Part shown: positions 26,728-64,000 of the stretch, one piece after another
Layout: the number at the start of each line of letters is the position of its first letter
Numbering within the stretch: position 1 is the first letter of the stretch
Origin: Nannochloris sp. 'desiccata'
Lineage: Eukaryota; Chlorophyta; Trebouxiophyceae; Chlorellales; Chlorellaceae
DNA length: 64,000 bases
Assembly (NCBI GenBank): GCA_019044685.2
Contig: JAGTXX020000006.1
Location: 2,721,255 to 2,785,254 of the forward strand
Direction: 5' to 3'
Notes under the pieces: generated by a model
Databases searched by the model: none
Told to the model about the DNA's origin: nothing
Seen by the model: the letters and a program-made list of their open reading frames with translations, nothing else
Program-made: the position numbers and the translations under genes

Positions 26728-27842
26728 TTAAACCTCATCGACAGGACCTGTCAACTTGATGTCAGGAGTAATATCGACAGGTGCGGAGCCACGAGGGGCA
26801 AGGGGGGTCACAGCATTCTCCCTATCCCAACCCTTTGAGGTTAACAGCCAGACAAAGACGCCCAAGAAGGAACCGATGAAAGGGCCGACAATGAACACCC
26901 AAAAGCTTGACCAAGTGCCAGAGATGATAGCAGGTCCGAGAGAACGGGCGGGGTTGATAGAACAACCATCGACAGGGATCAGCACAGCGTGCCCAAGGAA
27001 GACAGCAAAGCCAATAGCCAAGGGACCCATGGGAGAGATTGTGGTGTTTGTGGGGTCAGCGCAGCACATGTGAACGACATAGCAAAGGAATCCGGTCATG
27101 ACAACTTCACCAAGGAGGGCCTCGCCAGAGGAGAAACCAGGGGAGACAGCGTTAGATCCGAGGGAACTCTCGCTGGAGTTGGGAACCATGCCGTAGAGGA
27201 AAGAGGCGCCAAGGATAGAACCAACAACTTGGGCACAAACGTTGGCGACGCCTTGGATGAAGTTGCAGTGTCCAGATAAGAAGAGGGAGAGAGTAACAGC
27301 GGGGTTCAAGTGGCATCCAGAGACGTGGCCAATAGAGTAGGCGAGAACCATGATGGCCATACCGAAAGCGAAGGCAGTGTTGACACCGAAACTGGAGTTG
27401 GTGACAATGACGTCAGACAACTCTTTGATTAAGGTATTCGTATCTGGGGTAACAGCATCATTGGCGTCTTCAGCAAAAGCATTGGAGCGCAGTGAACTGA
27501 AGCCAACCGCGGTCCCGCAACCAATGAACACAAAGAACATCATGCCTGGAAAGTTTTTGAAGGAAGAATGAGATTTAAGAATAACAATTTGTACGTGTTT
27601 GTGTTTTAGTTATTTTATTATTGGCATGCGCTGGGGAGGCAGATGATTTTTGCTGAACAGCAATGCTTCCAGTTACAGCTTGCAGGCAGCGGTGCTGCTG
27701 GCCTGCAAGACACAACCAGAAAGTGCCGAAACTCACCGAAAAATTCAGCCATGACCATGCGGAGGTTTAGCTTCCTCTCAGTGTACTTAGGAATAGCTTC
27801 CTTAGCCCATGTGCTAAAAACAGAGGTATCGAACTGACTCAT
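26728..27842 (-). CDS. Aquaporin (MIP family), copy 1
   Basis: Exons 27842-27737 and 27545-26728 (minus strand; TTCG/gtgagt to ttccag/GCATG) encode 307 residues. Both half-helix motifs are intact: HLNPAVTL (Asn about 116) and SINPARSLGP (Asn about 233), with the selectivity-filter Arg after the second NPA. Six membrane segments are evident. The loop after the first helix is long and acidic (AEDANDAVTPDTNT). Major intrinsic proteins conduct water or small neutral solutes. The cellular membrane and the solute cannot be told from sequence alone. This is the downstream member of a tandem pair with the copy at 29019-30133, with the intron at the same position. Confidence 0.95.
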
Positions 27843-29018
27843 CTTGATTTAGAGTGGATTCTGCATGGCAAGCACAATAACAAATTTGCAATTAAAAATA
27901 CAAGATCGTGATAGTTTTCACGGAGCACAAATTATCAGCAAAGAATTTGGGACGCCCATCAAGGTAATTAGGTGGATATTTCCACAAAACAAGAGCCGGC
28001 AGGCAGAGAATCAATGCCATGGCCAGGAGTACAGCAGCCATTTAATTACCCACAAACGCACTATTTCGAATCGCAAGTACATTTAAACAATGTTGGGGTC
28101 ACCTGGTGCGGATTTACCTTGTGTTATAGGTGAACGTGGACAAATAATGTGTTTAGAATGCAATTTGGCACTACTGAGCAGACGAATTCTAGAGTTAGTG
28201 GAGGCTGGAAATGAAAAAGTACAACATGTATAAAGGTTTTCATGTGGTTGCAGGGGCAGCATACCATAGTTTTATGGATGTAGAACACCCCACTTCAAAA
28301 GTCGAGTTTTCTTCCCACCCAGTGACTTGTTCCCACTCTTTCTTCTATTAACTTACCCTCACATTCTTTTGACTTCGACAAAAAGTTTATTTATGCGTGC
28401 AATCGCGATATTTAAATTCTAGTACACTACACCTCAAGTGTTTGCTGCCTTTTTCACGTTAACGAATGCTGGTAATACAATGATGTAAACATCCTAAACT
28501 TATTGCAAGTCCAGCAGGTTCAATGTTGACGTCAAGACCGTGGGCGGTGCCAGTAGTTAACCATGTGTTTAACAATGTTGCAGCGGGAACGACACACAAT
28601 GACCAGCAATATCACAAAGAATACGACGGAACAAAAAGCTTTTTACAAATAGGGATTGATGGCTTAAGACTTCATTATTAAAAAACTTACTTGGATAAGG
28701 CGCCCCAAAATTAAAACGCTTCTTCCCGCGGGCGGATATTAATAAATGGAGGGAAGACCAACATCAAGTATTCAGAAGCAATATAGTAAAAATATCGATA
28801 TCGCTGAAATCTTACGGGTATTTTTGGTCAGCGTAAACAGAAAAAGAAAGACTGTCATATTTTGAGTTTAAGGCTTAAGATTTGGGATTTCTGGCGAGTC
28901 TATTTTTGACAAAAGGTGAGAAAGGCGCCGTATATAATGTATGTCATAGTTACTGCCACTCGATCCCTTGAGTCACCTTATTGGGTTTATTTGTTTGATC
29001 AGAAAAATTTGATTATTT
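27843..29018. other. Intergenic between tandem aquaporins
   Basis: 1.18 kb containing the promoter of aquaporin copy 1 and the 3' flank of copy 2. No coding sequence is supported. A TATATAATG-like element near 28932 reads on the plus strand and has no gene to serve. Confidence 0.35.
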
Positions 29019-30133
29019 TCACAAGACGCCGTCGACAGAGATGCCCACAGGCTTTACGTCAGGGGTGACGATGGGAGTCTGAGCGCGAGGGGGTAAGGGA
29101 GTCACAGCGTTCTCCTTGTCCCAGGCAAACGAGACCAAGGTCCAGAAAAAGACGCCGAAGAAGGAACCGACGAAAGGACCGGCAATAAATATCCAGAAGC
29201 CTGACCAGCTACCAGAGACAATAGCAGGCCCGAGAGAACGGGCGGGGTTGATAGAACAACCATCGACAGGGATCAACACAGTGTGCCCAAGGAAGACAGC
29301 AAAGCCAATAGCCAAGGGAGCCATAGGGGCGATTCCAGTATTGTTAGACTCCTTAGCGACACACATGTGCACAACAAAGCAAAGGAATCCAGTCATGACA
29401 ACTTCACCCAGGAGGGCCTCGCCAGAGGAGAAACCAGGGGAGACAGCGTTAGATCCGAGGGAACTCTCGCTGGAGTTGGGAACCATGCCGTAGAGGAAAG
29501 AGGCGCCAAGGATAGAACCAACAACTTGGGCACAAACGTTGGCGACGCCTTGGATGAAGTTGCAGTGTCCAGATAAGAAGAGGGAGAGAGTAACAGCGGG
29601 GTTCAAGTGGCATCCAGAGACGTGGCCAATAGAGTAGGCGAGAACCATGATGGCCATACCGAAAGCGAAGGCAGTGTTGACACCGAAACTGGAGTTGATG
29701 ACAATGACGTCAGACAACTCGGAAGTCTGCCTGCTAATGGCAGTGTTAGTATCGTTGGTGACTTGGTCGGCAGCACCATCAGCGTACGCACTGGGACGGA
29801 GGGAAGAAAAACCTACGGCGGTGCCGCAACCAATGAACACAAAGAACATCATGCCTGGAAAGTTTTTGAAGGAAAAATTAGACAATATAATTCATTGCAA
29901 TTTACTCAGAGGTTAATCGCCATGCCATTGCAGAGGCAGAAGGCTGGAGCCAACTGGCCTCCCTGCACTCTCGCCCCCCTAGCCAACCCAATTATCAAAA
30001 GAGTAGCAATAAAGTGTCGAAACTCACCGACAAACTCGGCCATGACCATACGGAGGTTCAACTTCCTCTCGGTATACTTAGGAGTGGTCGCCTTGGCCCA
30101 GTTGGTGAATACTGAGGTATCGAACTGAGTCAT
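29019..30133 (-). CDS. Aquaporin (MIP family), copy 2
   Basis: Exons 30133-30028 and 29854-29019 (minus strand) encode 313 residues. It has the same architecture as copy 1, with both NPA motifs and the NPAR filter Arg. It differs mainly in the first extracellular loop (ADGAADQVTNDTNTAISRQ, six residues longer) and in the C-terminal tail. The middle of the protein, from about FGVNTAFAF to VVMTGFLC, is identical to copy 1. The intron position and phase are conserved, but its sequence and length differ. The role is probably overlapping; distinct loops and tails suggest different gating or trafficking (inference). Confidence 0.95.
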
Positions 30134-30731
30134 CTTTCTTGATGTTACTGCAGGTGAGTAGGATTAACAAAAGTTGAGGCGAATTACAAAGGATGACCCA
30201 TCTGATGCGAACCTAAGTATGTTAAAAGACGAAAGCGATACAACACGGCGGAGGTACGTCATTGAATGTGCAAGCAGGGAACCTAATCCCATAGTTCCCC
30301 CTGATGACAATGAAACCCGTAGTATTTCGCAAGTAAAACAAGAAACTGGCGCAACGTATCAATTTGAACGAACCGTATAGGCAACTTTACGGGGTTACGG
30401 TGAAGAATTGGACCTACAATTGGAAGGTAATATGTTTATTCAATTCTGAACCAAATCCAGCAGTACGCTAGTGGTCAAGGAGAGAGGGATTGGAGGTCGC
30501 TACTTAACCTTTTTAGAGTCTTAAAAGTAATTGAACTTTGGTTCCGATACTAAACGACGCGCTATTGGGGCCGAGGTGAGTAGTGGAGAGAAGACCCCTG
30601 CAAGATATGTATTTAAAAGAAAAAGGTTGAAAAAAAAAACAAAGCACAGCATGTCAAAATTAAGGCAGGCCCAGTTACTCGTTACTTACTTTCATCGGTC
30701 CAAATCACAAAGAATCGTTTAACCTCGTATA
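30134..30731. promoter_or_regulatory. Divergent promoter region aquaporin copy 2 / scramblase
   Basis: 598 bp between head-to-head start codons. It includes a poly-A run near 30632. No gene is seen. Confidence 0.35.
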
Positions 30732-32195
30732 ATGAGGCGGTTGGGCAGATTGGCCGGGCATTTGCGGCCACTCTTGGAACAGCAATTAGAACGAAATTTG
30801 ATAACAAGATCAGAGTCGGTGCCTTCATTCAACCGTGCTTTGCATGTTAATAGCTCTGATTTTAATCTCAAATCTTCCTATCCACCCACCGCAACCTTGT
30901 GCAATTTCTCTAGTGAATATCAGCGGCATCTCTACCGCTCCTACGCAACAACCAACAAGCGGACCGCTGTCAAACGCCTTAGCAGAGCTTCCCAGAGAAT
31001 CGTCCCTACACCACGAGAATCTGAAGTAGTGCAAGTCTCTCCTCAGGGAACAAGATCAGACGTTGCTGAAGTCTCAGATGTGGTAGATCACTCTGCTCTT
31101 GTCATTACTCGAGGAATCGAATGGGGAACCGTTTTGCTTGGATTTGAGCAAGCAAATCGATACACTGTGTATAATGGATCTGGTGATGTAGTAGCGCACT
31201 TACTAGAGGAAGAAGGGTCTATAGGTAAAGCTATTGGTAGACAGCTATTACGCACTCGCCGCCCTTTTACCGCCACTGTTCTGAACCCCTCTGGTGATCA
31301 AATTATTTTCAGATTACGACGTCCAGCCTACCTTATTTCATCGACAATCTACATTGAAGATGGAGAAGGCAACCGTCTAGGAGAAGTGCAGCAATCATGG
31401 CATTTATGGAGACGTAGGTATGATTTATTTCTCAACCAAAAACAATTCGCTGCTGTCGATGCCCCATTGCTGGGATGGGAGTTTGAATTAAAAGATTCAC
31501 ATGGAGACACTTTGGCTTTAATAGATCGAAATTTCTCAGGATTTGGAAAGGAAATATTTACAGACGCAGGTCGGTATGTACTACACTTTGGAGGCAGCCC
31601 CCAAGAGGCAGCAGAGCAGATTCACACAGCAGTTGAAGCTGCACACCCAAATCGCCCTGCTCCGCCTGTGACCGCTCTTGCGGGTCTCCGAACAGATGCA
31701 GTTGTAATTCCTACAACAATTGGGAATCAGCTTGCTGTTTCACGTCCTCTGCAACTAGATGAGCGTATGGTTGCTTTAGCTTTGGCGGTTTCTATTGATT
31801 ATGATTTCTTTTCACGGCATAGTTATGGAGGTGGGGCGTTGAGTCCATTTGTCCACCCACCTATTATTCCATTCCCTATGGGAGGAATGGGAGGTGGAGA
31901 TGGTGCTGAAGATAATGGTGAAGAAGATAGTGGAGAGGGAGAACATAGTGGTGAACAGGTTAGAGCAGCTGGTGTTGGCAGCGGTGGTGGTGACGCAATG
32001 CCACCATCCGGAGGTACTGGTAATGGTGCTGACCCTTTAGAAAGAAATTTAGGTGGAGATGAATGGGGAGAGCAACCATCAGAAGAGTCTAGCGGTGGTG
32101 ATTGGGGCTGGGGTGATGATAATGATAATGATGGTGATGGGGGTGGTACGTTATCAGATGTCCTCGGCAGTTTTGGATGGGGTGACGATGATTAG
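30732..32195 (+). CDS. Mitochondrial phospholipid-scramblase-like (AIM25/LOR) protein
   Basis: Intronless, 487 residues. The region from about 125 to 300 (LVITRGIEWGTVLLGFEQANRYTVY..., RRPFTATVLNPSGDQIIFRLRRPAYLISSTIYI, GEVQQSWHLWRRRYDLFL, FSGFGKEIFTDAGRYVLHFG) is the tubby-like scramblase/LURP-one fold as in yeast AIM25. The N-terminus is Arg-rich and nearly free of acids for about 40 residues, typical of a mitochondrial presequence. The last 110 residues are Gly/Glu/Asp/Trp-rich (GDWGWGDD, SFGWGDDD) and probably disordered. A hydrophobic segment near MVALALAVSI is the likely membrane contact. A TGTAA signal follows the stop. Scrambling activity is inferred from the family only. Confidence 0.85.
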   Translation: MRRLGRLAGHLRPLLEQQLERNLITRSESVPSFNRALHVNSSDFNLKSSYPPTATLCNFSSEYQRHLYRSYATTNKRTAVKRLSRASQRIVPTPRESEVVQVSPQGTRSDVAEVSDVVDHSALVITRGIEWGTVLLGFEQANRYTVYNGSGDVVAHLLEEEGSIGKAIGRQLLRTRRPFTATVLNPSGDQIIFRLRRPAYLISSTIYIEDGEGNRLGEVQQSWHLWRRRYDLFLNQKQFAAVDAPLLGWEFELKDSHGDTLALIDRNFSGFGKEIFTDAGRYVLHFGGSPQEAAEQIHTAVEAAHPNRPAPPVTALAGLRTDAVVIPTTIGNQLAVSRPLQLDERMVALALAVSIDYDFFSRHSYGGGALSPFVHPPIIPFPMGGMGGGDGAEDNGEEDSGEGEHSGEQVRAAGVGSGGGDAMPPSGGTGNGADPLERNLGGDEWGEQPSEESSGGDWGWGDDNDNDGDGGGTLSDVLGSFGWGDDD

Positions 32196-32331
32196 TAAGT
32201 TTGTTAATTGATTGTAAGTAAATAGAGTATGTACTCATAATAATTTATAGGTAAAAAGTGCATGATCATGTCAAAAGTTAAGAAATAACGGTACTATCGA
32301 TAATAACAAACATAATAAATAAAAAATTTAA

Positions 32332-33607
32332 TTAAGCTTGCATCGGTTTATCTAGGGAGCTTGCCGTCATAATCTTTAATGGGATCATTTCTTCATTCCC
32401 TGATGCTGCTGCTGCTGCCGCTGCAGATGAAGGCGACGATGGCGGCGGTCCTGCTGCCTTTGCTGCTTGTAATTTTTGATAGTTGTACCAGCACACTGCC
32501 AAAAATGCTATGAAGTAGCCGAATAAATTTAAACCTGAGACAGCAGAATGGAACAACCACACCGACAAACCAATCAACATCCAATCTTTAGCTACACCAG
32601 CAATATTCATAGTTAACGCAGAAGTCTTGCCAATCAGCATGAATACAGCCATATTCAAACAAAAGGCCGCAGTGGCATTGGCAATCATGTGGAAAGGGTT
32701 GACCACTAGCTCAGCGTCATTAGTTATTTTACTAAATTCCAAAGCGAAAAAGGGGAGGAGTAAAAACCCAAAGCAACACGGCGCTACGTAATATAAAGTG
32801 GTAATGGGATTCAGCTTCAAGCCACGAGATTGTAATAAAATTTGAACAAGGACAAGGCGGATAGATTCGGTAACGATTGAAGAAAGTTGGAACAAGACAC
32901 CAGTCATATTGAAATTCAATTCACCGAAAGAGGCTACAGCGACACCAATGGTAACTAATATCATGTTTAAGAAAGTGGGCCAGTTGAACCGCTCAGTGCC
33001 AAAGACACAGCCGACAGAGAAAACAGCAACGGGCATCAAAGCTTTGAGCATTTGGATGAATGACACTGACAAGTACAAGTATGCAGCGTTGCCTACCCAT
33101 AATGTACCAGCATAGCATGCTCCGATAGGAACGATCGCTCTGCAAATTTGGAGAAGCAACAGCGTGAGTCAGTGAACATGTGGTTTTGCAAGGTTTAGGG
33201 AACTACCGCCTTCCAACTCCGGCTTACAACAAAATCAAAGGTATGCTTACTTCATGAACGTTTCCTGCTCCATATTGATTGACTGAACTTTACCAGACTT
33301 CACTAGTCCAAATGCTAAAGATGAACAAAAGAACATGTGCCTGCATAGTGAGATAAAAAGCAAAGCAAAAGATTTAAGCCAACGGCCGCAAGTAAGTTTA
33401 GGATATTCAAGCAGTTCAACTGTCTCAAGCGCCACAGTATTTTACTTACCACATGGTGAGAGATATAGGGTAGTGGAAACCGCTATATGCGAGGAGATAC
33501 TTGTTATAAAGTATAACTGCTCCACTTAAAAAGATCCAAATTCCTACTGCAGTGTAGGCGGCGATGATCTTTTTCATCAGCGTCTGTCTATCTGCAGCTT
33601 CTCCCAT
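32332..33607 (-). CDS. Sugar-phosphate/phosphate translocator-like carrier (TPT family), copy 1
   Basis: Exons 33607-33450, 33340-33251 and 33139-32332 (minus strand) encode 351 residues. Both introns are phase 2, interrupting the Trp of LTMW and the Lys of TFMK. The protein matches plant KT-group TPT carriers (At3g17430/At1g48230 type): NKYLLAYSGF, AYLYLSVSFIQMLKALMPVAVF, LLQSRGLKLNPITTLYYVAPC, and the Lys of VAKDWMLIG near the last helices. About ten membrane helices are present. The start at MGEAADR was chosen by alignment with copy 2; an upstream in-frame Met lies at 33631. Plant relatives are Golgi or endomembrane proteins of unknown substrate. The tail is Ala/Pro/Ser-rich. Confidence 0.92.
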
Positions 33608-34087
33608 TTTCTTTGGTTCTATTCTATTCAACAGTGTTCGAAATGTGAAGAAATACGTGATAATAAAAATGTGCTATTTTCAAATCCTAGCTTAAACTTT
33701 TAAGCTATCTTACAAATTAGTCAGTTTTTAAGCTCAAAGCTTCAGATTTAGCTTTATACATTATCAGAAATAAAGACTGTTTATGATTTTGCTGCTATGT
33801 TTTAAGTCAATAAATTACTGCTCTTCCCTCCTGCTCAGTTTCCCCGGCAGCTCAGCAGGCTGCGCCTCCTAGTAGCAATTCAGGATTACAGTTTCGAACA
33901 AAACAAAAACATGTAAGCTCATATGAGAAAAGTCAAATCTCGAAGTAATTAGCGTACTAAAATCATGCAATGGGGGTTTCTTACTTTATAAAAGGGATAA
34001 TTATATACTTTCCGGCAACCACCACCTCCCACTTTCAACCCTCCATTTTAGTATCAATATGAAGGGATTGACAGTGTGCTAAGGATT
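33608..34087. other. Intergenic between tandem carrier genes
   Basis: The promoter of copy 1 and the 3' flank of copy 2. Nothing else is recognised. Confidence 0.3.
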
Positions 34088-35429
34088 TCAGACCTTCTGC
34101 TCTTTATCCACATTGATAACGATTAAGGGTGTCTTCTCATCAGGTGTGCTAGTTGCAGAAGTAAGACGAGTCGCAGCGCCTGTTGGCCGAGTCGGGGAAC
34201 CACCACCCTTCATCTGCAACACGGAATACATTGAAGGGAAATGATAGTAAGAAAGTGTTGCATGGATATTATCTACAGCAGAATTTCAATGCAAATTGTC
34301 TTCTCTCAAAGACCAGATAAATTTCTAAAATATTAAAAAAAAAACTTACCCCTTGTAATTTCTGATAATTGTACCAGCAGACTGCCAAAAATGCAATCAA
34401 GTAGCCAAAGAGATTCAAACTTGACACAGCCGAATGGAACAACCATACCGACAAGCCAATCAACATCCAATCTTTCACTACACCAGCAATATTCATAGTT
34501 AATGCAGACGTTTTTCCAATCAATAAAAACACTGCCATGTTGAGTCCAAATGCAGCTGTAGCGTTCCCAAGGAAATTCAGAGGGTTGATAGAAAGTGCAT
34601 TATCAGCTGCAATTTGGTGATACTCGATAGCAAAGAATGGGAGCAGTAGAAACATAAAGCAGCATGGTGCTACGTAATATAAAGTGGTAATGGGATTCAG
34701 CTTCAAGCCACGAGATTGTAATAAAATTTGAACAAGGACAAGACGGATAGATTCCATTGTAATAGACGACAGCTGGAACAATACACCAGTAAGGTTGAAA
34801 TTCAATTCACCAAAGGAAGCAATGGCAACTCCAATAGTAACCAATATCATGTTTAAAAACGTCTGCATGTTGAACCGCTCAGTGCCAAAAACACATCCAA
34901 CAGAAAAGACAGCCACGGGCATCAATGCTTTCAGCATTTGGATGAATGACACTGACAAGTACAAGTATGCAGCGTTGCCCACCCATAATGTACCAGCATA
35001 GCATGCCCCAATCGGTACAATAGCCTTCATATACGTTGCTCTGTCCATGTTGATTGATTGCACTTTGCCTGTTTTTATGAGGAGAACAGCCAGGAAGGAG
35101 CAGAAAAACATATGCCACATAGTAAGCGTCACTGGATAAGGGAATCCTGAGTAGGCAAGGATGTTCTTATTCCACATAATCACCTGCAAAATAGAAAGAG
35201 AGAAAGTTGTAGTGCGCGGTCGGAAAAGGGGGAAACAAACAAGAGAGCAAAATGTTGTTGGCAGCAGAAGCACCAAGCTTCCGCATGGTCCTCGTTTGCT
35301 CATCTTAGTCTAAGCATTATAAGCACTTCTTACCGTTCCACTGAGCCCTATCCAAATGGCTACATATGTATATGCTCTAATAACTCGAGCGGCAACAGAC
35401 TGGTGTGCGGGCGATGAAGGGTCACCCAT
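34088..35429 (-). CDS. Sugar-phosphate/phosphate translocator-like carrier (TPT family), copy 2
   Basis: Exons 35429-35334, 35183-34350 and 34213-34088 (minus strand) encode 351 residues, the same length as copy 1. Both introns are phase 0: one after GLSGT, before VIMWNKN, and one after QKLQG, before MKGGGSP. Neither position is used in copy 1, and the two copy-1 introns are absent here. The core from AIVPIGACYAGTLW to WYNYQKLQ is nearly the same as copy 1. The third exon gives a distinct tail ending DEKTPLIVINVDKEQKV. Family role as for copy 1; the differing tails suggest different sorting (inference). Confidence 0.92.
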
Positions 35430-35903: not shown

Positions 35904-37142
35904 ATGTTTGTGTTCCGCAACGTGCGTTCGCACAGCCTTCCGGCGGTTCCCGCTCCTTTAAAAAACTCCGAAATACTACAGAGAATCGCTCGAAGGCAAA
36001 TCGTTCGAAGACCTTCTTTAATTTCAAGTGCCAAGGGCCAACATGCCGACGACAAAGAGGAGCGGTAAGTTTAATATATCTCTAATTTACGAGAAAGATC
36101 AACAGATAAGCTGAGATACAATAGTGCTACCACATACTCTGCAGAAAGCAAAATATTCTACGTCGCGTTGCTGCTCTTAAAGAAGAGCAAGAAGCCCTGG
36201 CAGCTGAATTTGCAGCAGCGGTGGCAGACGGAGACGACGAGCAGCAGGAAGAAATACTACAAATACTCAAAGAAGAAGGCTTAGATGACATATTTAAAGA
36301 CCAAAATCCCCTATCTCAATTATACAACCCAACAGCCGGTGAGATTCCTGAAGGCATTTTGAGATTTGAATTGGAACGCCTTCTCGGTTTACGACCAGCA
36401 GATGATTTAGACGACCCTCTAGCCCAGGGGTTAGATTTTGAAGCAGTAGAAGAGTTTTCTAAATTGATTGAACAAGGTAATGGCTCATTACAACCCCCAG
36501 CATCATTTTGGGATGCAGAGCCTGAGCCTGGTGATCAATTTTTGGATTGTTTAAATAAAAGCGTTGAAAATTTTGAAGAAATGTTGCTTAGTAAGAAAGA
36601 ACAAGCTAAGCTACGGCGAGAGCGTAAAGCTGCTGGTGAAATAGACGATCCAGAGGATAGTGAAGATGCATTTAGATCATTATTAAATGATATTCCGATG
36701 TTTCCAGAAGATTATATTAAAAATATCCCTGCCCCTGATATCCCTGAAAAGGCGGTAACACAATTTGAACGTGCGGAACGAGTTTTGCTAGTACTTCGAC
36801 GTGCACTGCTAGAAGATGGATTTGTACCTAGCGCAGGGGTAGATGCTCTGGTTACTCAAGACCTTGTTTCTTCTTCTTCTTCAGAAAAATTCTTTTTTGA
36901 AGATCCCTGGATGGCGGTGGACAATTTTGAAGATGCTCTTCAATATTTAAAGAAGATGGAGCTCTATGCTGGTATTCATTTGGATGTAGATACTATGTTT
37001 TCAAGTTATTACGAATATAAACCTGAAGTGAAATGTCGTATTGTAGTGCACACACTAATGCATGTACCTCTCCCAGCCTGGTATGCATCGTATTTGGAGC
37101 TGCATGGGCAACCAGCACCACCAGCAGATTCGGGAACAAAAC

Positions 37143-37150
37143 ATCGCCGG
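37143..37150. repeat. Target-site duplication, left copy
   Basis: ATCGCCGG directly before the element, repeated at 37911-37918. Eight bases is the hAT superfamily duplication length. Confidence 0.88.
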
Positions 37151-37910
37151 CAGTGCTTCGTTTAGCCGGCATATATGCCGAAAATGCCGGAAAATGCCAA
37201 TTTTCCGGCATTTTCAGGCGCAGGAACAGGAAAAAATGCCGTGCAAAAAGTGCCGGAGCGGAGCTCCGGCGGGCCAGAAATGCCGGGGGAAAATGCCGTT
37301 TTTTTCGAAAATTTTGAAAAAATGCCGGAGATTTAGGCCAGTTTTAGAGTACTAAATTAACAAAAGTTCATTTGTAAGAGGTTATTCTCTCATTATCACT
37401 ATGGATACCACTCGGCAGACCAATGATCAGGACTTAGTCCGAACTTTGGTTGCCCAGATCTTTGATCGAGTCATGGCTGTCCAGCACTTGCAACAACCCA
37501 TTGATTTGACTTCTTCTCCGTTCAAAGAACCTGCTTTGAAGGTATGTGATGTCATCTGTATGCTTAATTTCTTAAAATAAGCCACCCAAATTCAAATCTG
37601 AATTTTCTTCCTTGTTGCAGAAGAGGAAAAAAGGTATGGAAGGCGAAGAAAAAGCGTCGTGGAGCGCATTTGTAGTTCCTTGTTTTGCTTTTTTAAAGAT
37701 GTAATCTAAAGAAATTCCAGCCATGTTTCAATAAGGCGCATCTGCGCTGCTCAGAAATAGTGCCTGATGCTGTCAAGAAAAAAAATGGAAAAAATGCCGG
37801 GGCAGAATCCAAATATGGAAAAAATGCCGGGGCAGAATGCCGAAAAACAGGCCAGGGACGAAAAAATGCCGGGAAAAAATGCCAGGCCAAAATCCTTAAA
37901 CGAAGCACTG
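37151..37910 (+). mobile_element. Non-autonomous hAT-type DNA transposon, 760 bp
   Basis: Terminal inverted repeats CAGTGCTTCGTTTA at 37151-37164 and its exact reverse complement at 37897-37910, flanked by identical 8-bp duplications ATCGCCGG. CA-G termini and an 8-bp duplication are defining features of hAT elements. Both subterminal zones are packed with the motif AAAATGCCGG (at least eight copies at 37165-37335 and five at 37780-37890), like the short transposase-binding repeats inside Ac/Ds-type ends. No transposase domain is present. The interior holds one short spliced reading frame, listed separately. Perfect repeats and duplications imply a recent insertion. Confidence 0.9.
37401..37704 (+). 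CDS. Small spliced reading frame inside hAT element
   Basis: ATG at 37401, exon to 37541 (TTGAAG/gtatgt), acceptor cttgttgcag, exon 37621-37704 ending TAA: 74 residues beginning MDTTRQTNDQDLVRTLVAQIF and containing KKRKKG. Splice sites and frame are good. It could be the leftover N-terminus of a transposase gene or a captured host exon. No domain is recognised. Confidence 0.35.
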
Positions 37911-37918
37911 ATCGCCGG
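37911..37918. repeat. Target-site duplication, right copy
   Basis: ATCGCCGG directly after the element, identical to 37143-37150. Confidence 0.88.
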
Positions 37919-38867
37919 CAAGCCGGAGAAGCAATAAAAATTAATTTGCTTAAAAATGGAGATGATGAAATTAAACCATTAACACCTGGAGTGCTGTTCC
38001 CTAGAGAACTGAAAGAAGGAGAAAAACCTAACCAAAGAGCATTTGCGAGATGGCTAAGAAAGCCTGTTCCTGTAGCAGCACAAAGACAAGTTTTGGTACC
38101 CAACCCTACGTGGAAAAGGAGTAATGAAAAGTGTGATTTTGAAGTGATTGGCAATAATGAACATTTTCCCCCTCAAACATCGAAGAAGTTTCCCAACTAC
38201 TCTCTCCTCACGCCTGCTGCAGCTCTTTTAACAAACCAAGGCTCTGTTGGCTGGTATGCTCCGCAAACACTAGAAAATTCTTCACGACAACTCCCGCCAC
38301 TACCTAGGCCAGAGCAAATACAACCAGAAGATCTTGATTTTGACCCACTAACCCCTGATGAAGCAGAACAGCTCCTTCGAGAACTTCTTGGGAATAAATT
38401 TGACGACATAGCAGCACAGCTACCGACAAAAGCACAAGGTGCATTCGTTTCAGCTGAGCAGTTTAACGAATTGCAAATAGGTGTTACATGGTCCTATGAA
38501 ATAGATCCTAGGAGTGGGAAGGTGTCTTCTATTTTTATGCAGTGGAATTGGGTTGGTGGTCCCATTGCAGATATCACTCATGCCTATGATATTTATTTAG
38601 CAGAGTGCGGGTTAGTTTAAAAACTACTTTGAATAAAACATGCCTTTAATTAGCAGTAATATGCATATCTGTAATTGATCTACTTACTCAATTAAAAAAC
38701 GATACGAGCACAAAAACAGAAAAAAATACGTGTCTTTTCACAATGAAATTTTGAGGATTTTCAAAAACTAATTTTTTATTACTCGAGTTAAAACGCAGTG
38801 ATGATATGGGCCCTTTGCTTGCTCTGCTTCTTAAAGCCCAGGTATGATGGCGGGGAATTCAAGCTCT

Positions 38868-40158: not shown

Positions 40159-40287
40159 TGCTTTTGATATTCGGTTACACAAGCTTGAGATGATGACAAA
40201 TAGTAATAAGTAAAATTGAATTAATTGGAGTCTTACTGGGCATATAAATTAGTGGAGCTCCTGCTGCATGCTGTGGCCGCTGGGTTT

Positions 40288-45503: not shown

Positions 45504-46664
45504 TTAGTACTCCAAATGCGTCCCAGACGATATAAGCATCCACCATGGAAAGGTAACAGCTGCAGCAGGCAAGGCAAACATGAACATTTCCCATTTTGAA
45601 GGGAATATTGCGTTAGAATAGGCAGAATCTCCACGGCGAGATCGTAAAAATGACTTGCGTGCCTGTACTTCTCTACCATAAGCGATCCAACAGGGAATCC
45701 AGAGCCCAAAAATAAGTTGAAGCGCTGCTTGGCTCCCAATGCACCGTTCGACTGAGAGCTCAGTAGGAGGGGTGGTAGAATCAGTCTTACTGTGTAGGGC
45801 TGTAGATGATGCTATTACCTTAGCTGCACTATATAGACTGGTAGTAGAAGCTGAGGGCCAGAAGTTCCGTGTCAGGGTTGAAAAGAAAGGGTTGACCAAT
45901 TGACCATGAATCCAGTTATATGCGCCCCTTAACGCCGGACCTCTCAAACATATATTGCGATTACTCACGATGAATATTAAGGAGTAAATACACTGCGTAA
46001 GAAACATCCATTTAAACGTGAGGCTGCCCATAAATACTGTCATTACTAAGAGCATAGCGCCATTGCTAGAGAACAGAGCTGTCAGTGCCTTTGCACGAGG
46101 CACCAAGGCTTCATCGCAGCCACTTCCTGTGCATGGATACAGATGGTCATAATATTTGCAAAATTGTAAGAACTGTACAATCTTTGCCGAGGCAACCCAG
46201 AACGGTCTAAAAGTGCTAATGTAGTGTTTGTAGCTGAGCAACATGCCAAAAACTGGCAGCAAGCCTGAAGACACGCAGGTAAATAGAAAAACAATTGAGG
46301 TCTGAGTGTTTCCGCGCAAGTGAGCTTTTAGAGCCATTCCAATCCATCCCAATGTGCGAATACCCAATGCCAAAAGAAGCTGCATTTGAAAATTTGAGGA
46401 AAGTATTGAGAATTATTTAAACTGTGATAGATATGAAGAGGCGGAGCGGGAAATATTGGGAGTACAACCTCAAAAATGAATGAAAGAGGACACGCTTACG
46501 TCGTAAAACACTTGGGATCTATTATGTTGCTTTATAAACTCATTCTCCAACGCTTGATCTGTGAAGGCTAAATCAAGTCCTAAAACGATTGGATTTGAAG
46601 ATGAGCAGTTCAGGGTCCGAGCCTTGTCAGCTAGCTCTGATTCTTTAGGCTGTGATGTAGACAT
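45504..46664 (-). CDS. Unknown multi-pass membrane protein, tandem copy 1
   Basis: Exons 46664-46500 and 46379-45504 (minus strand; TACGAC/gtaagc to aatgcag/CTTC, phase 0) encode 346 residues. About six hydrophobic segments are seen (for example IVFLFTCVSSGLLPVFGML, ALQLIFGLWIPCWIAYG, FALPAAAVTFPWWMLI). Conserved points between the copies include NPIVLGLDLAFTDQALE near the N-terminus, CTGSGCDEALVPRAKALTALFSSNGAM, and WIPCWIAYGREVQARKSFLRSRRGD near the C-terminus. I recognise no family. A TGTAA signal on the minus strand lies near 45441. Confidence 0.8.
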
Positions 46665-46875
46665 TTGTGTTAAATACTTGAAACAAAACAGTTTAAATCG
46701 CTTGCTATAATGTGACGTTGGTTATTATTTATTATTCAAAATAAAAAACAGTGCAGCGTCACGGTGACCGTTTCAGCGTCCTCTTTTCTTTTACGTTGTT
46801 AGCAGAATTACCTTCCTTACATCTCCCCCACGCTAATTGATGTAAAAGGTTTTGTTGGTTCAAGTTTACTTATTT

Positions 46876-48036
46876 TTAATACTCCAAATGCGTCCCAGAC
46901 AATATAAACATACACCAGGGGAATGCCACAGCGGGCAAACATGCACACATGAACATTTCCCATTTTGAAGGGAATATTGCGTTAGAATAGGCAGAATCTC
47001 CACGGCGAGATCGTAAAAATGACTTGCGTGCCTGTACTTCTCTACCATAAGCGATCCAACAGGGAATCCAGAGCCCAAAAATAAGTTGAAACGCTGCTTG
47101 GCTCCCAATGCACCGTTCGACTGAGAGCTCAGTAGGAGGGGTGGTAGAATCAGTCTTACTGTGTAGGGCTGTAGATGATGCTATTACCTTAGCTGCACTA
47201 TATAGACTGGTAGTAGAAGCTGAGGGCCAGAAGTTCCCTGTCAGGGTTGAAAAGAAAGGGTTGACCAGTTGACCATGAATCCAGTTATATGCACCCCTTA
47301 ACGCCGGACCTCTCAAACATATATTGCGATTACTGACAATCAATACTAAGCAATAGATACACTGAGTGATAAACATCCATTTAAACGCTAGATTTCCCAT
47401 GAAAGCCGTCATTACTAAGAACATAGCGCCATTGCTAGAGAACAGAGCTGTCAGTGCCTTTGCACGAGGCACCAAAGCTTCATCGCAGCCACTTCCTGTG
47501 CATGGATACAGATGGCCGTAGAATCTACCAACCTGTAAGAATTGTATTAGGTTTGCTGCAGTAACCCAGAACGGTCTGAAAGTGCTAATATAGTGTTTGT
47601 AGCTGAGCAACATGCCAAAAGCCGGTAGCAAGCCTGAAGGCATGCAAGAGCAAAGGAAATAAATTGCTGTCTGAGTGTTCCCACGTAGATAAGTTTTTAG
47701 TGCAGTTCCAATCCACCCCACAGCACGAATGCCCACTGCCAATACGAGCTGCATATGTAATTCGGAAGATGAAGAAGAAATAAATACAAAATAAGCAAGG
47801 GGCGGGGGCCAAAAATTGAGAGAGAAGGAAATGTGACGAACTAAAAATCACCATTGGACCACTCTTACGTCGTAAAAAACTTGTGATCTATTATGTGATT
47901 CTATAAATTCCTTTTCCAGTGCTTGATCTGTGAAGGCTAGATCAAGCCCCAGAACGATTGGATTTGATGTTAATTGTGACGACAGCGTCCTAGGCTCGTC
48001 AGATAGAAATGAATCTGGTGGCTCTGGTGCAGGCAT
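46876..48036 (-). CDS. Unknown multi-pass membrane protein, tandem copy 2
   Basis: Exons 48036-47869 and 47748-46876 (minus strand) encode 346 residues, with the intron at the same place as copy 1 (FYD/L). The second half (NRNICLRGPALRGAYNWIHG to YSNAIFPSKWEMFM) is almost identical to copy 1 at DNA level. The first half and the N-terminus (MPAPEPPDSFLSDEP) are more diverged. Same unknown family; head-to-tail duplication with copy 1. Confidence 0.8.
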
Positions 48037-48196
48037 CTTTAATAAATATTTTAGATAGCAATATTCGAATTTGTCCTGCAGCAGCGAGCTACTGGCATTT
48101 AATAAATATTTGAAAATTGGGCAGTATACTGTACTGTTACAGCTTTAAACGCTGCGCTGATTTTGTAAACAATTTACATTCTACAAGAAGCACAGA

Positions 48197-63780: not shown

Positions 63781-64000
63781 TTTAGGGTTTAGGGTTTAGG
63801 GACTCTTAGGGTTTTTTAGGGTTAGGTTTTAGGGTTTAGGGTTTAGGGTTTAGGGTTAGGGTTTAGGGTTTAGGGTTTAGGGTTTAGGGTTTAGGGTTTA
63901 GGGTTTAGGGTTTAGGGTTTAGGGTTTAGGGTTTAGGGTTTAGGGTTTAGGGTTTAGGGTTTAGGGTTTAGGGTTTAGGGTTTAGGGTTTAGGGTTTAGG
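63781..64000 (+). repeat. Telomere, (TTTAGGG)n
   Basis: The first 70 bases contain variant units (GACTCTTAGGG, TTTTTTAGGG, TTAGGG), then TTTAGGG repeats perfectly to the last base, with the G-rich strand running 5' to 3' outward. This is the plant-type telomere at a right chromosome end. The variant units are at the proximal side, as in real telomere junctions. Confidence 0.99.

Follow-up and report, generated by a model that had tools for sequence, protein, structure and literature searches.

A transposon within a coding exon

We analyzed a window of 64,000 nucleotides at the end of contig JAGTXX020000006.1 (C6) of the green alga Nannochloris sp. 'desiccata' (GenBank assembly GCA_019044685.2, positions 2,721,255 to 2,785,254 of the forward strand), in which a short non-autonomous hAT transposon interrupts a gene without an assigned function. 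Very probably, the gene was disrupted recently, on one of two chromosome-end copies that are nearly identical in sequence. The element spans positions 37151-37910 of the plus strand, exactly 760 bp, and lies inside a coding exon. Its first 14 bases (CAGTGCTTCGTTTA, 37151-37164) are the perfect reverse complement of the last 14 (37897-37910, minus strand), and each form of this end is present once on the plus strand of the window. The octamer ATCGCCGG flanks the element on both sides, at 37143-37150 and 37911-37918, forming a perfect 8-bp target site duplication. Chance origin of these repeats was excluded, because near-identical copies of the element recur in the genome with different 8-bp duplications. 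The hAT insertion inside a coding exon is thus a confirmed observation, and an earlier sequence-only reading of the locus had given its size, ends, and duplication, as well as the 623 codons left on its removal, correctly to the base.

The host gene begins with an exon at 35904-36064 of the plus strand, where our gene model agrees with that of the closest protein found, and continues after an intron of 80 nt with a second exon. The latter runs from 36145 to 37150, up to and including one copy of the target duplication, and resumes beyond the element at 37919-38620, ending with the stop codon. Joining the three segments yields 623 codons with a sole stop at the end (622 amino acids plus stop). 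The in-frame "reversibility" of the insertion is in this sense arithmetic only. When the element is present, the host frame runs into a stop codon at 37163-37165, inside the element.

The closest protein, Ndes2526A_g03564 (P0001), also from Nannochloris sp. 'desiccata', is 96% identical over the whole query. Two other relatives, P0002 (84% identity) and P0004 (72%), are both uninterrupted at the insertion site. All seven relatives carry either no name or the label "hypothetical." At an E value of 0.01, no Pfam match was found for the two host halves or for P0001; the joined 622-residue protein gave only matches with E values of 0.084 and 0.95. P0002 matched DUF5691 with an E value of 0.0013, at 18.8 bits and thus below the cutoff of 27. 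A mitochondrial ribosomal protein, considered as a candidate function, was dropped since no match to it was found.

The element family and its full-length copy

Copies of the element were sought in one search of the assembly (21,550,525 bases in 18 contigs), with 40 of the 42 candidate places scored. The search returned 27 matches at 99 to 100% identity, followed by a break to partial relatives at 95% identity or less. The genome contains one full-length copy, an element of 3,245 bp on C10 with a three-exon transposase gene encoding 854 amino acids. When positions 37150-37910 were used as the query, query positions 1-491 and 484-761 were 99% and 100% identical, respectively, to the two ends of this full-length copy. 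The 760-bp form is an internal-deletion derivative of the full-length element, with which it has its ends and a single deletion junction in common. This junction maps to about 37633-37640; at this point GGTAT-GA is common to the two sides of the full-length element.

Part of the transposase gene is retained on the plus strand of the short element. Exon 1 (37401-37541, 47 codons) is the same as in the C10 copy, and intron 1 (37542-37620, GTATGT...TTGCAG) has the boundaries of that copy. At 37621-37704, the internal deletion has fused the start of exon 2 with the end of exon 3 out of frame, and this segment closes a remnant frame of 74 codons. The motif ATGCCGG occurs eight times within the 760 bp, as opposed to three times in the rest of the window.

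Comparison of 27 short copies, two of which are the cut outer units of nested pairs, distinguished six types. The only differences between types are one C/T change, the lengths of two T runs, a deletion of 6 bp, and, in a single copy, one inserted A; the copy in the host gene is letter-identical to seven others. No private base substitution was found among these copies at 99% identity or more. With zero substitutions in about 20,368 bases, mean divergence would be at most roughly 1.5e-4 per site, provided that the assembly did not homogenize repeats. At all five places that define the classes, one copy (L022, C15:27733) agrees with the full-length element; two derived groups, of 13 copies each, depart from L022.

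The ends of the copies were taken as exact 14-mers and are therefore perfect in this count by construction, which does not apply to the duplications: each of the 27 flanking 8-bp pairs, from 26 insertions of the short element and from the full-length copy, is perfect. The exception is the inner unit of the dimer L017, which has no right duplication of its own. Within the 27 duplications, counted on both strands (n = 54), T was found in 25 of 54 cases at positions 2 and 3, and A in 25 of 54 at positions 6 and 7. This bias is not strong enough for assignment to a named hAT group.

The hAT dimerization domain (PF05699, cutoff 21.4 bits) was found above the cutoff in exon 3 of the full-length copy (24.5 bits) and in the proteins P0008 (23.3), P0009 (22.2), and P0010 (24.8). 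The structure predicted for the transposase resembles Hermes in its RNase H-like catalytic fold and in its C-terminal dimerization region, whereas sequence identity to Hermes in the structural alignments is only 12 to 14% and the N-terminal part was modeled at low confidence. A search of solved structures with P0008 alone gave no matches at an E value of 10; a search with a profile of five sequences found Hermes. With regard to the catalytic Asp-Asp-Glu residues of the superfamily, D347, invariant in five aligned sequences (two of them partial), is a putative one. Matches to the N-terminal DNA-binding zinc finger zf-C17orf113 did not reach the cutoff of 29.5, with 19.2 and 22.0 bits.

Together, the 8-bp duplications, the short inverted ends, the dimerization domain of the full-length copy, and the Hermes-like predicted fold support assignment of the family to the hAT superfamily, as a non-autonomous member. 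The sequence-only reading had called the element hAT-type and very young, and both descriptions hold, the second by virtue of 27 copies without a private substitution. It had also named a lack of genomic copies with the same ends as evidence that would count against it; such copies were found. No literature on a hAT family of Nannochloris was found among the matches listed.

Two pairs of copies are nested. At L006 (755-2277), a short element lies inside the inverted repeat of another, with the duplication GGCTAAAC. L017 (268-1775) has the same nested junction, but its outer unit is without its last 17 bases and the pair is flanked by a duplication different from that of L006, CCCCAATG, as if both elements had transposed together by means of the inner element's end.

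An empty site on C13

Contig C13 holds the host gene uninterrupted, with exactly one ATCGCCGG at the insertion site. Over 1,949 bases, the two copies of the gene differ at 8 bases and two amino acids. The surrounding sequence is 99.74% identical to the window, with 72 substitutions and four gaps of 1 to 3 bases over 30,143 aligned columns, the element excluded; within this stretch the element is the only larger difference. An exact search of C13 for the joined site of 120 bases gave no match owing to one base difference in the right flank, and the alignment shows the site itself to be exact. The suggestion that the insertion is polymorphic is therefore borne out within the assembly, although allele and duplicate are not fully separated. 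Neither did all relatives carry the element at this site, an outcome that the sequence-only reading had set against its own claim: P0002 and P0004 do not.

The relation of C13 to C6 was examined with 13 probes along C13 (456,607 bases). Nine of them (60 to 280 kb) matched the end of C6 and four (320 to 430 kb) matched C10, as did the last 10 kb of the contig; the right part of C13 corresponds to C10:812-676 kb (L054-L058, L062). C13 is thus not a plain haplotig of C6, given that its right part belongs to C10, and the pattern suggests either a heterozygous translocation or a chimeric contig. Accordingly, the end of C6 and C13 might not be alleles but products of a recent duplication, or part of C13 might be an assembly chimera, in which case the empty site would be a paralogue. 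The junction of C6-end and C10 sequence in one contig speaks for this view, which we consider unlikely, though it is the most serious of the alternatives. Each probe had exactly one partner outside C13, at 93 to 100% identity and in collinear order on either side of the junction, a pattern that an alternate-haplotype contig or a heterozygous translocation would produce, and Nannochloris species are given as diploid in PMC12636532. The youth of the insertion is independent of this question.

The next larger difference between C13 and the window is an insert of 1,378 bp in C13 (18481-19858, L055), flanked by a 10-bp duplication, ATTAGTGGAG. It corresponds to window positions 40248-40257, where it is absent, and no clear inverted ends were seen in it by eye.

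Other insertion sites

Second sites were sought for 24 further insertion sites in one search, again with 40 of the 42 candidates scored. Two insertions on C15 have an exact element-free second site on the same contig, and one on C13 has such a site on C10; in each of these three cases, 480 flanking bases matched without substitution. A nested pair on C7 lies within a repeat that is found empty in three other places, at 98 to 99% identity. Four sites had weaker second matches (80 to 92%), and the remaining ones matched their own flanks only. No filled second site was found among the 24. Both copies of one site on C15, L012 and L013, contain an older sister element (ends CAGTGTTTCG, duplication CCAAAGAG). 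Thus, each of the four young insertions for which a near-exact second site exists is present in one copy and absent from the other, and the single older insertion that was checked occurs in both.

We also joined up to 260 bases of flank at each site and recorded stop-free spans of at least 150 codons. Such a span was found at only 1 of 26 insertion sites, namely, that in the host gene. The controls were random positions in the window, 49 to 51% of which lay in such spans, and in four other loci (43%) rather than the whole genome; three of the four loci had been fetched for their transposase genes, which raised the share of long frames. It seems that the elements avoid reading frames or that selection removes them from there. 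The insertion in the host gene may survive because C13 carries an intact copy.

Within the first ~1.26 Mb of C15 (L012, L013, L085, L086), matching places are arranged symmetrically (27733 and 1236598, 313818 and 943527, 323286 and 934986), as if two haplotypes had been joined as a fold-back. C17 is similar near 203 kb and 456 kb.

A gene model with the insertion as an intron

In silico removal of positions 37081-37905 of the plus strand reproduced P0001, a protein of 603 amino acids, letter for letter. The insertion is thus present in the 2526A assembly, whose gene model takes it for an intron. At the two amino acid positions where C6 and C13 differ, P0001 agrees with C6, and the insertion in 2526A is therefore on the same haplotype as C6. 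Should 2526A be a different strain or assembly, the insertion would not be confined to a single culture.

The predicted intron of 825 nt would use a donor in the host exon (GTATGC, at 37081) and an acceptor, AAG, in the right inverted repeat of the element (AG at 37904-37905). Were the element indeed spliced from the transcript, the protein would lose 24 host residues and gain five (CTDRR) from the end of the element and the second duplication, and the insertion would be a nascent intron. Maize Ds1 is spliced from exons in a comparable manner. Introners with mixed sources of splice sites are likewise described in part of PMC9860276, and the 2526A model resembles both in pairing an acceptor in the inverted repeat with a host donor; it differs in that splicing in the alga is predicted only and that the other sampled insertions of the family are outside long reading frames.

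We regard such splicing as improbable despite the letter-for-letter, in-frame agreement with P0001, since a gene predictor may choose any in-frame splice. The implied intron ends with ...TTAAACGAAG and has 14% T in the 21 bases upstream, whereas three introns measured for comparison are 79 to 115 nt long, end with GCAG, and have 29 to 67% T; a fourth, in P0009, judged by eye, also ends with GCAG, although four introns are a small sample. Moreover, introners insert into genes, according to the portion of PMC9860276 consulted, and many insertions interrupting coding sequence would mark an introner family; here, one site of 26 fits. Slightly less probable still is the full scenario of a transposon caught becoming an intron, in which the inverted repeat would provide the 3' splice site and the host exon the donor, removal would be in frame, and an intact second copy would shelter the trial. 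If true, the alga would offer before and after copies of one intron gain at 99.7% identity.

Origin of the interrupted gene

Disruption by a recent transposon insertion accounts best for these results. An autonomous element of ~3.2 kb would have given rise to the short hAT transposon by internal deletion, and the transposase of the full-length element would presumably have moved the short form in trans. Its insertion into the coding exon would have duplicated 8 bp on one of the two near-identical chromosome-end copies, in a recent event. The uninterrupted copy on C13 presumably carries the function, and the interrupted copy would most likely produce a truncated protein with four element-encoded residues after KHRR, followed by the stop.

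Several points weigh against this account. Movement by the C10 transposase is surmised from the sequences; the four short copies that were compared with the C10 copy have two base differences from it in intron 1, and another, unsampled full-length copy may have been their direct source. Loss of function of the interrupted copy is not certain, since the 2526A gene model splices the element out. Finally, C13 is a rearranged or chimeric contig, so a recent duplication would look alike.

The C13 copy might also once have been filled and have lost the element by clean excision. hAT elements do excise, but excision usually leaves a footprint, whereas none was seen at the four empty sites examined, each of which has exactly one duplication, and P0002 and P0004 are also without the insertion; this history is very improbable. 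Least probable of all is an assembly artifact in which a repeat copy was set in the wrong gene: multicopy repeats can produce such errors and the assembly has other doubtful arrangements, but misassembly would not be expected to create a perfect 8-bp duplication specific to the locus, and the 2526A gene model, on a contig of 2,784,370 as opposed to 2,785,254 bases, contains the same right junction.

The young insertion invites comparison with maize Ac/Ds, in which the Ds-del class comprises internal-deletion derivatives of the autonomous element (as defined in an excerpt of PMC3260210). The algal element is likewise a short internal-deletion derivative with the ends of the autonomous element, 8-bp duplications, and a short motif, here ATGCCGG, repeated near both ends. 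It differs in its end sequence and host and in its 27 nearly identical short copies with one common deletion; mobilization in trans and binding of the transposase to ATGCCGG are putative in the alga. A second parallel comes from the diploid trebouxiophyte alga Auxenochlorella, in which families including hAT have many insertions segregating between two haplotypes, according to a section of PMC12636532. The likeness is in haplotype polymorphism; the genus is another one.

The element is thus of an ordinary kind, seen here with exceptional clarity: one genome contains the very young Ds-like insertion together with its siblings, its empty site, and its probable source. These features point to an Ac/Ds-like two-part transposon system, probably recently active, in a small marine green alga. 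The genome offers a single candidate for the autonomous element, a set of short copies that arose in a burst from one deletion derivative, and one gene in both filled and empty form, a pair that makes activity, excision, and splicing directly testable. The elements could serve as tagging tools. The 2526A model is also a warning that public gene models can disguise a fresh transposon as an intron.

Other features of the window

Positions 26792-35015 and 45504-48051 of the window also match C13 out of register, at 81 to 86% identity, which points to tandem gene duplicates. A telomere-type repeat, (TTTAGGG)n, at 63781-64000 closes the contig.
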